This document shows positions 1,356 to 29,087 of a stretch of 32,971 nt of DNA, piece by piece. The stretch is taken from assembly GCA_001799565.1 (NCBI GenBank), contig MGTS01000011.1, positions 1 through 32,971 of the forward strand, given 5' to 3'. Under the pieces are notes generated by a model. It worked only from the letters and a program-made list of their open reading frames with translations, had not been told where the DNA came from and made no database searches. Position numbers and translations under genes: made by a program. Position 1 is the first letter of the stretch; the number at the start of each line of letters is the position of its first letter. This DNA comes from Elusimicrobia bacterium GWA2_51_34 (GTDB lineage Bacteria; Elusimicrobiota; Elusimicrobia; Elusimicrobiales; UBA9959).

Positions 1356-3860
1356 TTACGCCTTCGCTTTATCGGCAGGGCCGTCTAGTACTTCGCGCAG
1401 TTTATGGGATAGCTCCCCCACCGTGAACGGCTTATATATAAATGCCAGCCCCGGCTCCAGCACGCCGTGTTTTGCCATAGCATCATCCGTATAGCCGGAC
1501 ATGAATAGGGTCCTGCGTATTAACTTTCTCCTCCCCAATTCCGCGGATAGTTCCCGACCGCTTATCCCAGGCATGACCACATCCGTCATCAGCAGATCCA
1601 CAATTTTGCCATGGCGCTCAATAACCTCCAAGGCCTCTTTTCCATTAGCGGCTGAAATAACTGTATAGCCGCTCATACGCAGTAGCCGTTCGCCAAGACG
1701 GCGCAAGCTTTCCTCATCTTCTACAAAAAGAACAGTTTCGCTACCCAGAAGAAGACTGTCTTTGTCTTTGTCTTTGTCTTTGTCTTTGCCTTTGTCTTTG
1801 TCTTTGCCTTTGCCTTTGTCAATAACAGTCGCGTCGTAATAAGGGATATATATATGAAAAGTTGTACCACGATCCGGAGCGCTTTCAACCTCAATCTCAC
1901 CTCCGCTCTGCTTAACTATTCCGAAAACCGTTGAGAGACCCAAGCCCGTACCCTTTCCTTTTTCTTTTGTGGTAAAGAACGGTTCAAATATATGCTCTTT
2001 GGTCTTATCAGTCATACCGCAGCCGGTGTCATAAATGCTTAAACACACCAAAGGACCTGGAGTAAAGGCCGGTTGCCTCAATAAAAAGTCCTCATTGGCA
2101 TCAATAAGCACAGTTTCTAAAATTAGCATTCCGCCTTTCTGCATAGCATCGCGCGCATTAACCGCGAGATTGACAAGCACTTGTTCTATCTGCCCTATGT
2201 CTACTTGTACCGGGCATGACACCGTTGAGAGTTTGGTTTCAAGTTTAATGTCCTCACCAATTAGACGCTTCAACATCTTCTCTATACGACGCACAACCGA
2301 ATTAAGGTCCACTACCTCTGTCTTTAAAACCTGTTTACGGCTAAAGGCTAAAAGCTGCCTCGTAAGCCCTGCGGCCCGCTCTGCAGCGGTCAGTATCTCT
2401 TTGACATCTTCCCTTTTAGTGTCATCTTCAGATAATTCCTTCATCAAAAAACCACCGTAGCCAATAATGGCAGTGAGGAGATTGTTAAAATCGTGTGCTA
2501 CGCCTCCGGCAAGCCGACCCACTAACTCCATTTTCTGGGACTGTTTAAACTGTTCCTCAAGCTTTAATTTATCATCCGCAGCTTGCTTTCGCTCAGTAAT
2601 ATCGACACAAGTTCCGATCCATTCCCGTACGCTCCCATCAGGGTGAAAGGCGGGAAAACCGCGAACTAAATGATTTCGATAAACCCCGTCATACCTGCGC
2701 ATGCGGTATTCTATCTCATAAGCTTTTTTTGCGGCAACAGAATCATTCCATGAATGCACAACGCGCTCAAGGTCTTCCGGATGAATGGCTTTCGCCCAAC
2801 CTATGCCTTTGGCCTCCTCATAAGACTGACCAGTAAATTTTCTGAGCGATGGCACATCCTCTTCGACTTCTCCTGCAGCATTTGTAACCCATCCGATCTG
2901 GCCTGTCAGCTCAATATACGACCGGTAACGTGCCTCGCTCTTCTGCAGCGCTACTTCCGCCTGCTTACGCTCAGTGATGTCCTCTGAGATGCCCAAAAGG
3001 TACTTCGTAATTCCATCATTGCCCCTGACACAAACCTTTCGGGTATGAAGCAGCCGGGTCTCCTTCCCGGCAGTCAGGATAGGTTCTTCCGGAATATCCA
3101 AAAGGCCGACTTTCCCGTCAAGCACTTCGCGATCCTTGGCCATGAAGTATGCAGCCTGTTCGGGTGGAAAAAAATCCAGGTCGCTCTTGCCCAGCAAGTC
3201 CTTGCGGTTATATCCCGTTAATTCCTCTCCTGCACGGTTAAACACTACGAACCGCAGGTCTTTCGCCTCCTTGAGAAAGATCATGAGTGGGACATTTTCC
3301 ACTACCATATCAAGAATGGTTTTAGACTCCGTCAGTTCCTCCCGCGTCCGCGTAAGATCGGTGTTATCCCGGATATTACACTGAATCACCTTGTGATCAT
3401 CCACCACATAAGTATTACTGACAAACTCCACAAAGAGTTTCCGGCCATCGGAGGCCACAAGGGGAAGCCCCTCATAACGGACATACCCGGTGTTGTGAAG
3501 TTCCTTGAATTTTTCCTTATTTGCAAAAATATCCTTAAAAGCCCCGATCTCCCAAAGTTTTTTGCCGGTTAACTGTTCAAGAGAAAAACCAAGCAGATTG
3601 ATAATAAATGGGTTCGCGTCCACAATACTGCCGGCTTCAGCCTCAAGGATGAGAATTCCATCCTGTGCCGCCTCAAACAGCCGCCGATAGCGCAACTCTG
3701 AGTCGCGCAAAGCAGCGTGCGTGCACTTCCTGTCGGGATCTGGACGTGAAGTATTAATAATCTCTTCCCGAATTACAGCGGACTCTACTGTGATTTCCGG
3801 GGGAGCAATTATCTCAGAAGCCTTAGCGTGCTGTATTTTGTTTTCCTCCCCTTCTGTCAT
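1356..3860 (-). CDS. Multi-PAS hybrid sensor histidine kinase with C-terminal receiver
   Basis: About 834 residues, cytosolic. I chose the ATG at 3858-3860, preceded by GGAA six nt upstream; a TTG seven codons further up is the alternative. Three PAS modules occupy about 54-165, 180-300 and 310-425, each of the last two ending in the PAC-type DITERKQA motif. HisKA contains VAHDFNN with H456. The HATPase shows NLAVNARDAM near 564-573, YDTGCGM near 610-616 and GKGTGLGLST near 635-644. A ten-unit Lys-Asp/Lys-Gly linker (about 682-701) separates the kinase from a receiver domain with D715, phospho-acceptor D760 and K810. The PAS folds suggest sensing of an intracellular ligand, redox state or light, but no cofactor residues could be assigned. 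It sits directly upstream of the REC-kinase, so the two may form a phosphorelay. Confidence 0.93.
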   Translation of the reverse strand: MTEGEENKIQHAKASEIIAPPEITVESAVIREEIINTSRPDPDRKCTHAALRDSELRYRRLFEAAQDGILILEAEAGSIVDANPFIINLLGFSLEQLTGKKLWEIGAFKDIFANKEKFKELHNTGYVRYEGLPLVASDGRKLFVEFVSNTYVVDDHKVIQCNIRDNTDLTRTREELTESKTILDMVVENVPLMIFLKEAKDLRFVVFNRAGEELTGYNRKDLLGKSDLDFFPPEQAAYFMAKDREVLDGKVGLLDIPEEPILTAGKETRLLHTRKVCVRGNDGITKYLLGISEDITERKQAEVALQKSEARYRSYIELTGQIGWVTNAAGEVEEDVPSLRKFTGQSYEEAKGIGWAKAIHPEDLERVVHSWNDSVAAKKAYEIEYRMRRYDGVYRNHLVRGFPAFHPDGSVREWIGTCVDITERKQAADDKLKLEEQFKQSQKMELVGRLAGGVAHDFNNLLTAIIGYGGFLMKELSEDDTKREDVKEILTAAERAAGLTRQLLAFSRKQVLKTEVVDLNSVVRRIEKMLKRLIGEDIKLETKLSTVSCPVQVDIGQIEQVLVNLAVNARDAMQKGGMLILETVLIDANEDFLLRQPAFTPGPLVCLSIYDTGCGMTDKTKEHIFEPFFTTKEKGKGTGLGLSTVFGIVKQSGGEIEVESAPDRGTTFHIYIPYYDATVIDKGKGKDKDKGKDKDKDKDKDSLLLGSETVLFVEDEESLRRLGERLLRMSGYTVISAANGKEALEVIERHGKIVDLLMTDVVMPGISGRELSAELGRRKLIRRTLFMSGYTDDAMAKHGVLEPGLAFIYKPFTVGELSHKLREVLDGPADKAKA
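1761..1820 (-). repeat. Hexanucleotide microsatellite, 10 units, coding
   Basis: Ten perfect-register hexamers (TTTGTC or TTTGCC on the + strand) inside the hybrid kinase. Each encodes Lys-Asp or Lys-Gly, giving a highly charged flexible linker between the ATPase and receiver domains. The 6-bp unit cannot shift the frame, so slippage would change only the linker length. Confidence 0.95.
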
Positions 3861-3883
3861 AATTATTTCCAATACTTGCAAAG

Positions 3884-14396: not shown

Positions 14397-14519
14397 GTCA
14401 CAAGCCACAGGTCACAAGTCACATGCAAGAAGAGGAGGGGAACATGGTGTTTTACCCTTTATTGGACGAAGCAAAGCAGTATCTCTTCGCCGTTACTTGT
14501 GGCCTGTGACTTGTGCTCC
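14397..14519. repeat. Heptamer inverted-repeat spacer A (word GTCACAA)
   Basis: Left arm 14397-14424 is four exact 7-mers: GTCACAA, GCCACAG, GTCACAA, GTCACAT. Right arm 14492-14519 is four 7-mers in the opposite sense: GTTACTT, GTGGCCT, GTGACTT, GTGCTCC. The arms pair over 26 positions with five mismatches. The 67-bp centre is purine-rich and has no gene. The spacer lies between convergent genes, 5 nt after the TSUP stop. The same word occurs inside the gene at 21057. Confidence 0.85.
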
Positions 14520-14524
14520 TGTGT

Positions 14525-18623: not shown

Positions 18624-18722
18624 GCCATAAGCCCTACGCCGTAGGCCATAGGCAAAACAAGGCTGCCATAAGCTTTAAGACGCATCAAAAAAACTTATGG
18701 CTTATGGCATATGGCTTATGGC
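18624..18722. repeat. Heptamer inverted-repeat spacer D (word GCCATAA)
   Basis: Left arm 18624-18651: GCCATAA, GCCCTAC, GCCGTAG, GCCATAG, then another GCCATAA at 18665-18671. Right arm 18695-18722 in the opposite sense: TTATGGC, TTATGGC, ATATGGC, TTATGGC. The last unit contains the stop codon of the gene at 18716-19339 (minus strand ...CCATAA), the same arrangement as array B. The arms can form a long hairpin. Confidence 0.85.
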
Positions 18723-19339
18723 AAAGATATTAACCCTTTCAGGCCCAGAAATAAATACCATAGCGCCGCCAGAAACAGAGTCATGCGGCCGATTCGCTTA
18801 AGCCGGGAGCCCAGAAAGGGTGTAGGCGTCAGCGCCGGAAGCAGGAAAAGGGAGGTGGATGTGAAAAAGCCCCCGAAATAAGCCAGACCTTTCAACGCAT
18901 CGGCAAGCCCCATAAGGCGCAAAAGACCGGCGGCAAAAGGCGGGCAGATATTTATACCGGTCAGAAAACCAAGCAAAAACGGTATTCTCTTTTCAGCCCA
19001 GGCGGCCGGGAGTGAGGCTAGGCATGGCGCATGTTTTTTGAGGCGCCCTGAGAAAAGGAAATAAAACATGAAAAGCGCCGTAACCACCATGCCGGCGGCA
19101 AGTGCCCTCTGCGGCAGATACGGGCCCGAAGCCTTTCCGAGTGAGACGGCAACCAGAGCGAACAACGTGTAAGCAATAAACCGCCCGGCCAGAAATTCAA
19201 TAAAAATAAGAAAATTAATCTTCCAACTTAGACCGCCGCCCGCAAGCAGATACGGCGCCAGCACAGGCAGACAGGAAGCCAGACAATAAGCCCCGGTGGA
19301 AAGGCCAAGAAGAAAACCTTCGGAAAATAATGCAGCCAT
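18716..19339 (-). CDS. DsbD/SafE-like (DsbD_2, TauE/SafE) membrane protein
   Basis: 207 residues, about six membrane segments, no signal peptide cleavage site. Cys19 and Cys23 in GAYCLASCLPVLAPY and Cys132 in TGINICPPFAAG match the positions of redox cysteines in CcdA/DsbD-type thiol transporters and SafE-type members of PF13386. Such proteins carry electrons or sit beside copper/cytochrome assembly genes. Its neighbours are a zinc-ribbon mini-protein and a NapH/CcoG-like ferredoxin membrane protein, which fits a redox role. The stop codon is inside a heptamer array, and no Shine-Dalgarno is visible before the ATG at 19337-19339. Confidence 0.8.
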   Translation of the reverse strand: MAALFSEGFLLGLSTGAYCLASCLPVLAPYLLAGGGLSWKINFLIFIEFLAGRFIAYTLFALVAVSLGKASGPYLPQRALAAGMVVTALFMFYFLFSGRLKKHAPCLASLPAAWAEKRIPFLLGFLTGINICPPFAAGLLRLMGLADALKGLAYFGGFFTSTSLFLLPALTPTPFLGSRLKRIGRMTLFLAALWYLFLGLKGLISLP

Positions 19340-20897: not shown

Positions 20898-20932
20898 AAA
20901 AAAGTAACTATCCGGGTTGGCTAAACAAGGCT

Positions 20933-21054
20933 CAACGGTTCAGCGGTTCAATGATACAGAATTAACGGTTCACGGTTTAAGATTGTTTTTTTTATAATCT
21001 TCTTGTTTTCTCTGATTTATAACCGTTGAACCGCTGAACCGTGAACCTGGAACC
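20933..21054. repeat. Octamer/heptamer inverted-repeat spacer G (word CAACGGTT)
   Basis: Left arm units CAACGGTT, CAGCGGTT (20933-20948) and ACGGTTC-type units at 20964-20977. Right arm AACCGTTG, AACCGCTG, AACCGTG, AACCTGG (21021-21050). Seventeen bases at 20935-20951 pair perfectly with 21026-21042. Unlike most others this spacer lies between two divergent start codons and runs to within a few bases of the 21057 ATG. Confidence 0.85.
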
Positions 21055-21056
21055 AT

Positions 21057-23216
21057 ATGCTCCTGTTTTTCATTTTCGGTTTTTTCGCCCTTCTCTCGCA
21101 GACGCTGCTGCTGCGGGAAATATCTTTTCTTTTTACGGCGCACGAACTTTCCATAGCCTGCTCCCTGGCTTTCTGGCTTTTCTGGACAGGAGCCGGCATT
21201 ACGGCTGCTAAAAAACACAGCCGGCTTGAAGCCTTGGCCGGGAACGAAAGCGCGCTTGGCCCGGCTTTCGTGGTTTTTGCTCTTGCCATGCCGGCTTGCA
21301 TGCTGGCCGCAAGGCAGGCAGCGCGCCTGGCGCAAACCGGACTTATGCCGGGCTTTCTGGAAATGATAGCCGGAACATTCCTGCTCACCATGCCGGCGGC
21401 ATTCGCCGGAGGCCTTGCCACGGCCGCCGGCCTGCGCAACCGGGGCGTTTATTTTTACGCGGCGGAAGCGGCGGGCGGAGCGTTGGCCGGAATTTGCGCC
21501 CTGCTATATCTGCGCTATTTCCCGGGTTTCGGCGCGCTTAAACTGACAGTGGTCAGTGGCGCGATACTTGCCGCGGCGGCGCTAATAAGTCACAAGTCTC
21601 AAGTCACAAGTCACAAGCCAGAGGTCACAGACAGCAAGTTTGTAAAACCGCTTAGAATATTGCCATTCGGCGCCATAATCGCGTTGTTTGCCTTTTTTTA
21701 TTTTAGCGACGCGCGAAGCATATTTCTTAAAGGCGGAGCGCGCCCGGCGGAAGTATTTAATTCAACCGGCTCGCGCCTTACCGCCGCCTACGGCGTGTCC
21801 GGCGGCACGGACCTCACCGAAAACGGAGCGTTGCTTGCCGCCTTGCCCGATGAAAGCGGAACCTATGAGACTTTTGCCCTGCCGCTGCTCGCGCGCGCTA
21901 AACCGCAAAAAATTCTTATAGCCGGCGAAAAAGCTTTTTTCGCGGCGTCTGAGCTGCTTAAGTATAAGCCCGCCTTTCTTGAAGTTGCAGAACCCGACCA
22001 CTTCCGGGCGCGATATTTACTTAACAAACTGACCTTAAAGTCCGACTCCGTTAAACTAATAAACGAGGACGCCCGGCAGCTGATTGCCTCTTCCACCGGT
22101 GGTTACAGTGCCATAATGCTGGCCTCCGGCGGCCCTGTAAACGCAGCGGCTAACCGCCTTTATACGCTGGAATTTTTTCGCCTTGCCGCGGAAAAGCTGA
22201 AGCCGGACGGTCTGCTTGTTTTTGAACTGCCTTTTTCAGAAAATTATATTTCACCGGAGCAGGGTTATCTTGCCGCCTGTCTGATAAATACCGCGCGTCT
22301 TGCTTTTGAAAATATCGCGTTGATACCCGCCTCCCGGCTGATAGTAATAGCTTCCCGGCGCCCGGTTAAATTGGACCCCGCGGTCATGGCCGGCGCTTAC
22401 AGTAAAAGAAAGCTGGCGAACCGCAACGCCGTGCCAAGCGCATTCCCGTTTTTGCTGGACCCAAACCGCGTCCGGTGGGCGCAGACCGGACTTGATAAAA
22501 TAAAAAACCCGCAGGTGAACTCCGACCTTGACCCTGTTTCATACTTTTACTTCTGGCGGCTGTGGCTTTCAATGGTGGCTTCCCCCTCCATGCTTTTGGG
22601 CCTCGCGCTGACGGCGCTTATTTTTATTGTTTCGTTCGCGCGCCTTTTCGGCTCCACGTCCGCGTGGCGGGAACCGGCAGGGGCGTCTTCTTTGCTTATC
22701 GGGTTCTGGGGTATGGCTTTTGAGGCGGGTGTGATCCTGGTTTTTCAGACGCTGACCGGCCAGCTTGCCTGGAAGCTTGGGGCGCTGTTCTCAGCTTTCC
22801 TCGCAGGAGCGGCTTTAGGGGTTTACCCCGCACTTTGGCCCTTTGGAAAAAAGTGCGGAGCGGGATTGCTGCTGGCAGAATTTATGGCGCTGGGGCTTTC
22901 AGTTTTAGCGGCGGCGGTCCTGAAAAATTCTTTTGCTTACAGCTTGAACACGGTCTTTATTTGTTCTATTTTGGGATTGGCGGTGGCGGGCACGATTTCC
23001 GGCGCGTATTTCTCCTGCGCGTCAACCCTAAACCCGCAGAAAGGGCCCGGAGTTTACGCGCGGGACCTGGCGGGCGCGGCGCTTGGAGCATTTGCAGCAT
23101 CAGCCTTCGTCGTCCCTCTCTGGGGCCTGGAATCCGCCTTCCTCCTGTCAGCCGCCGCGGCGCTCCTGTCGCTGATGATAGACGGAAGATATTATTTAAA
23201 GAGTTTAAAATCTTGA
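21057..23216 (+). CDS. Spermidine-synthase-like polytopic membrane protein
   Basis: 719 residues: an N-terminal membrane part (about 1-218, six to seven segments), a Rossmann-type domain (about 240-430) resembling spermidine synthase/methyltransferases, and a C-terminal membrane part (about 495-715). This is the layout of fused transporter/spermidine synthase proteins. The nucleotide loop is altered: after KILIAGE, where GGGxG is expected, the sequence reads KAFFA. LEVAEPD and INEDARQL match the following acidic positions. Polyamine synthesis is therefore doubtful. Residues 178-194 (SHKSQVTSHKPEVTDSK), between membrane segments, are encoded by an array of 7-mers identical in word to spacer A. 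GGA five to six nt before the ATG is a weak ribosome-binding site. Confidence 0.75.
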   Translation: MLLFFIFGFFALLSQTLLLREISFLFTAHELSIACSLAFWLFWTGAGITAAKKHSRLEALAGNESALGPAFVVFALAMPACMLAARQAARLAQTGLMPGFLEMIAGTFLLTMPAAFAGGLATAAGLRNRGVYFYAAEAAGGALAGICALLYLRYFPGFGALKLTVVSGAILAAAALISHKSQVTSHKPEVTDSKFVKPLRILPFGAIIALFAFFYFSDARSIFLKGGARPAEVFNSTGSRLTAAYGVSGGTDLTENGALLAALPDESGTYETFALPLLARAKPQKILIAGEKAFFAASELLKYKPAFLEVAEPDHFRARYLLNKLTLKSDSVKLINEDARQLIASSTGGYSAIMLASGGPVNAAANRLYTLEFFRLAAEKLKPDGLLVFELPFSENYISPEQGYLAACLINTARLAFENIALIPASRLIVIASRRPVKLDPAVMAGAYSKRKLANRNAVPSAFPFLLDPNRVRWAQTGLDKIKNPQVNSDLDPVSYFYFWRLWLSMVASPSMLLGLALTALIFIVSFARLFGSTSAWREPAGASSLLIGFWGMAFEAGVILVFQTLTGQLAWKLGALFSAFLAGAALGVYPALWPFGKKCGAGLLLAEFMALGLSVLAAAVLKNSFAYSLNTVFICSILGLAVAGTISGAYFSCASTLNPQKGPGVYARDLAGAALGAFAASAFVVPLWGLESAFLLSAAAALLSLMIDGRYYLKSLKS
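21587..21628 (+). repeat. In-frame heptamer array inside a coding sequence
   Basis: Six contiguous 7-mers: AAGTCAC, AAGTCTC, AAGTCAC, AAGTCAC, AAGCCAG, AGGTCAC. Total length 42 bp (14 codons), so the reading frame is kept. The word is the same as spacer A at 14397-14519. It encodes a hydrophilic loop between predicted membrane segments. Confidence 0.9.
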
Positions 23217-29015: not shown

Positions 29016-29087
29016 TTTAGGCTGTAGGCTGAAGGCTGTTAGTCGTATATGCTTCTTGCCTAGTAGTCTAACTGCCTACAGCCTATC
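29016..29087. repeat. Heptamer inverted-repeat spacer J (word TGTAGGC)
   Basis: Left arm 29016-29043: TTTAGGC, TGTAGGC, TGAAGGC, TGTTAGT. Right arm 29074-29087: GCCTACA, GCCTATC. Twelve bases at 29018-29029 pair perfectly with 29074-29085. The word is related to spacer I about 2 kb away. Located between the ispA stop and the dxs start. Confidence 0.85.

Follow-up and report, generated by a model that had tools for sequence, protein, structure and literature searches.

Dispersed heptanucleotide repeats have been described with the word TAACTGA in Beggiatoaceae, Cyanobacteria, and Bacteroidetes (PMC4679880) and with the word GGGAATC in Xanthomonas and Nostoc (PMC4692102). The LSSRs of Mrazek 2007, as cited in these papers, are of the same kind. 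In such systems, one word occupies many, mostly intergenic loci, and the few copies in ORFs lie in the stop-free orientation. The coding copies are mostly near protein ends and come without orthologue proof of insertion. The genome of Geobacter metallireducens features paired tandem-repeat sites and, in addition, an element of four GGGACCG heptamers (PMC2700814). The repeats there are short—class 3 being heptamers—and the two members of a pair lie on opposite strands with a variable distance between them; the GGGACCG element occurs between and within genes. The words are few, have 8 to 24 pairs each, and are read there as protein-binding sites. Rickettsia palindromic elements (RPEs) are dispersed and tolerated in frame in conserved protein genes (PMC10969869, PMC2229807); they are palindromes of 105 to 150 bp with a family consensus. 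Borg ORFs carry tandem repeats of perfect units with a length divisible by three (PMC9879509), which create new hydrophilic protein stretches.

The sequence considered here is a heptamer array with the word GTCACAR in a window of 32,971 nt—the whole stretch of DNA that was analyzed—from an Elusimicrobia MAG (G000). It combines features of the Beggiatoaceae/Xanthomonas, Geobacter, Rickettsia, and Borg systems and is an exact fit to none. It resembles the dispersed heptanucleotides in its loci and orientation but differs in three respects: insertion is shown by orthologues, conserved genes carry the copies in internal loops and linkers, and many words occur side by side. With Geobacter, it has in common the short paired repeats on opposite strands and the occurrence between and within genes. 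However, two features found here, an arm order that is the same for all words and in-frame effects on proteins, are not described in the available part of the Geobacter report. In-frame insertion in conserved genes is shared with the RPEs, but the insert is a 42-bp single-arm tandem array of heptamers. As in Borgs, tandem repeats create a new hydrophilic stretch, but the unit has 7 nt, the array departs from the consensus at three positions, and it lies on a bacterial chromosome.

The host gene (21057–23216, forward strand) is an ORF with orthologues in relatives and encodes a membrane protein of 719 residues. The spermidine-synthase-like domain of this protein, residues 275 to 388, is degenerate. 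The score against PF01564 is 22.5 bits, below the cut-off of 22.9 for a spermidine synthase, and the NCBIfam models score far under their cut-offs. The array lies in frame inside this ORF at 21589–21630 on the forward strand and consists of six units in the order GTCACAA, GTCTCAA, GTCACAA, GTCACAA, GCCAGAG, and GTCACAG. An earlier note on this DNA had reported the six GTCACAA-type units at 21587–21628; the array itself stands, and its phase is shifted by two bases. It matches (GTCACAR)6 at 39 of 42 bases, where no more than 25 are reached by any of 300 dinucleotide shuffles of the gene, and its period-7 identity is 28 of 35 as compared with a shuffle maximum of 23. Origin of the array by chance is excluded; like the known dispersed heptanucleotides (STRR/LSSR), it shows tandem 7-nt units above chance. 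The word is indeed shared with spacer A, as had been claimed: a GTCACAA-type array at 14397–14424 (forward strand) is the first arm of an inverted pair, and a TTGTGAC-type array at about 14497–14524 (reverse strand) is the second. For the coding array, no inverted partner beyond background is found within approximately 280 nt in the host gene.

The array translates into the hydrophilic stretch ISHKSQVTSHKPEVTDS, residues 177 to 193. As judged by hydropathy, it sits between two hydrophobic segments, namely residues 157 to 179 (21525–21593, forward strand) and residues 195 to 219 (21639–21713, forward strand), in line with the previously proposed hydrophilic loop between membrane segments. An AlphaFold model from a six-row alignment has a mean pLDDT of 50, at which the loop is not interpretable.

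The orthologue search gave matches in 27 of 61 genomes, and 23 sequences were aligned. At one and the same site, the insert comprises 17 residues in G000 and 32 and 11 residues in its congeners G001 and G002, respectively. The same word is visible in the DNA of G001 at the loop, and about three decayed units are left in G002, as read by eye. The insert is absent from all 20 aligned orthologues of other genera, one of which (L021) features an unrelated longer segment near the loop site. Since the congeners have the tract and these 20 orthologues lack it, the loop tract is, judged from the alignment, a genus-level insertion. The check proposed in the earlier note thereby comes out in favour of an insertion, and a conserved loop encoded by unrelated codons is not found among the 20 aligned other-genus orthologues. 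For the host locus, no allele lacking the tract was found at high DNA identity. It is exceedingly improbable that the tract is a conserved functional loop, a product of chance, or an assembly artefact. No point in support of these readings was found, and against them stand the excess of the array over every shuffle, the missing loop in other genera, and the heptamers at the same site in the independent MAG G001 (corresponding to UBA9634).

The length differences among the three species are 45 and 18 nt, multiples of 3 and not of 7. The earlier statement that the 42-bp length preserves the frame is, hence, correct as to the frame and needs refinement as to the cause: it is the total length that counts, not triplets of units. 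The host gene is open and maintained under purifying selection while tolerating the insert, because dN/dS is about 0.2 in all three within-genus comparisons (a value of about 0.23 is also given). A 7-nt unit is not a multiple of three, and a change by one unit breaks the frame, which would suit a phase-variation switch turning the gene off and on. Such a switch is nevertheless highly unlikely: the units are imperfect, the frame is open in all three species despite the length differences, and tracts also occur in housekeeping genes, for example, queE and an addB-like gene.

The GTCACAA strand is free of stop codons and encodes the cyclic heptapeptide VTSHKSQ in all three frames. Its complement TTGTGAC has TGA in all three frames, which restricts an internal coding copy to a single sense arm. 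Hence, copies of at least three units deep in ORFs are all sense, and deep antisense copies have only 14 nt—a bias that is a consequence of the genetic code and not independent evidence. Retention in genes is explained by the same property, since one strand is open in every frame and always yields the same peptide.

In G000, the word also stands in frame in queE, in the addB-like nuclease gene (two loops), and in a PUFA-synthase-like gene, and it is found at the 3′ ends, that is, the C termini, of lgt, tadA-like, and tmk genes; the names PUFA synthase and tmk come from sequence read by eye. These in-frame sites are mostly linkers, loops, or C termini. The queE insert is present in all three congeneric genomes and absent from six rows of other genera. 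Loop 1 of the addB-like gene is occupied in G000, G001, and G015 (genus g3) and empty in G004 (genus g3), where a similar stretch lies a little further on. Loop 2 is of the GTCACAA type in G001, G002, and G010; the stretch that G000 and G004 carry there is a different one and resembles GAGTCTG. In relatives, the word lies between or after Pfam domains of MetH, rhomboid, NifH-like fusion, TsaD-like, and polyketide-synthase-type proteins. With the word in frame in so many genes, relatives included, permissive sites have been invaded recurrently. The earlier idea that arrays move into coding DNA or arise within it, thus, gains several further genes as examples, and both routes remain covered by it.

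Triple units with up to two mismatches have 190 placements in G000, 263 in G001, and 43 in G002 and also occur in genera g3, g4, g6, and g9, and the control with the reversed word gives 0 to 4 per strand. Of 295 genomes of the phylum, 11 have exact triple units; they all belong to this family and are spread over six genera, and among the genomes searched outside the family, none has one. As the earlier note had it, the word is not bound to a single locus. A sample of 816 kb, or 31% of the G000 genome, contains 64 arrays with two or more units. Of these, 43 lie outside or at the edge of ORFs, with ORFs covering about 90% of the sampled sequence, so the pattern is that of a dispersed heptanucleotide (STRR/LSSR), one word at many, mostly intergenic loci. 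A literature search on GTCACAA as a repeated heptamer gave nothing related. Only one pair of GTCACAA regions has flanking sequence in common, and a shared core of GTCACAA elements was dropped as a candidate for this reason. For other words, clusters were seen, which may in part be due to degenerate units that escaped masking.

Local birth of the tract, in which a GTCACAA-like sequence present in the loop by chance was the seed for polymerase slippage, independently of other arrays, would agree with the lack of common flanks and with the insert length differing among congeners. Heptamers are also a preferred slippage unit in bacteria, according to the literature summarised in PMC4679880. We consider it unlikely, however, as independent random seeds would yield many unrelated words in genes and hardly one word at dozens of loci in the 816-kb sample, in six genera, and at several coding sites. 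The 42-bp tract is, instead, probably a coding copy of the lineage-specific dispersed GTCACAR word, a judgement that extends to the following scheme of origin as a whole. In the ancestor of the genus, a short stretch of the word would have entered the loop that connects two membrane segments, or would have been seeded there. Units may afterwards have been gained and lost by slippage—lowered here because the array is imperfect—and by small indels, with selection keeping only frame-preserving lengths. The insert would be tolerated because of the stop-free GTCACAA strand and its hydrophilic VTSHKSQ in every frame, and the coding copy would correspond to only one arm, in sense orientation, of the inverted pair known from the spacers. 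The word would likely have spread by template-switch copying from other arrays, since GTCACAA loci share almost no flanks and no transposase linked to the arrays was found. Most likely, the insert is without a function of its own and does no more than lengthen the extramembrane loop.

In the spacers, arrays with a period of 7 or 8 are overrepresented. Of 195 arrays, 83 have their own word in inverted orientation within 200 bp, with about 2 expected for another word. The G000 sample contains 71 inverted pairs of heptamer or octamer arrays, for example, at window positions 18626–18723, 20929–21040, and 29016–29084, and the median spacer between the inverted arms is about 62 nt. The arm order is consistent in 14 of 14 word classes with at least two pairs. 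The purine-rich arm comes first in 31 word classes versus 3, and the arm order in the G002 sample is 17 pairs versus 1; generic inverted repeats of 12-mers, taken from one contig, are free of this purine-first bias. When syntenic spacers are compared, one species often has a pair that another species lacks. A role of the pairs as convergent terminators is not favoured, with 2 of 60 placed pairs in convergent gaps as compared with 56 of 392 gaps overall.

The pairing and its median spacer, together with the 4 to 8 Y1 transposase genes in G000, G001, G002, and G007, bring to mind REP/REPIN-type elements mobilised by a RAYT (Y1) transposase. A repeat of this kind would be expected to border a RAYT gene, but the borders of the 17 Y1 loci that were read are other short inverted sites and not heptamer arrays. 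Moreover, the few arrays near Y1 genes lie about 100 to 1300 nt off, and low-array genomes such as G034 are equally rich in Y1 genes, which makes mobilisation of this kind very improbable. The RAYT-like genes (e.g. L182, L184, L188, and L193) have their own short inverted sites at the borders, such as AAAAGGTAGCAGGTACCTTTTT.

A more tentative reading, plausible rather than probable, concerns the spacer results, which reach beyond the coding array and rest on samples. The coding array may be an isolated arm from a class of elements not described before, in which heptamer or octamer arrays form inverted pairs, mostly some 20 to 160 bp apart, with many words and the purine-rich arm always first. 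At orthologous spacers, such a pair would be there or missing as a whole, the word could differ with the hairpin kept, and single stop-free arms would have spread into genes. What the orthologues show is that conserved bacterial genes can take up and keep tandem repeats with a non-triplet unit, and that working proteins can be lengthened in this way. This makes it predictable which short repeats are able to colonise proteins, and in what orientation. The results also draw attention to the candidate class of spacer elements with its spread and its arm order.

Several single elements of the spacers and genes can be described in addition. An inverted pair of octamers of the GGTTCAAC type, about 150 bp in size, lies at window positions 20904–21054, just before the start codon of the host gene. 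This site is empty in G001 and G002; the G002 row of the DNA alignment (A1) represents the region upstream of the gene and is used only for this empty site. At some syntenic spacers, for example, at C15:6226–6446, C5:13641–13791, and C21:86137–86245 of G000, both species feature a hairpin whose repeat arms consist of different words. A small palindrome like AAGGAACTCCTT is located between the arms of several ACCCTCT-type elements, for example, at C15:8401–8479 of G000, and it is found with other words, too. Finally, a hexamer array (TGTCTT) at window positions 1757–1820 stands in frame in a sensor-kinase ORF (1356–3881), where it forms a KGKDKD-rich linker.
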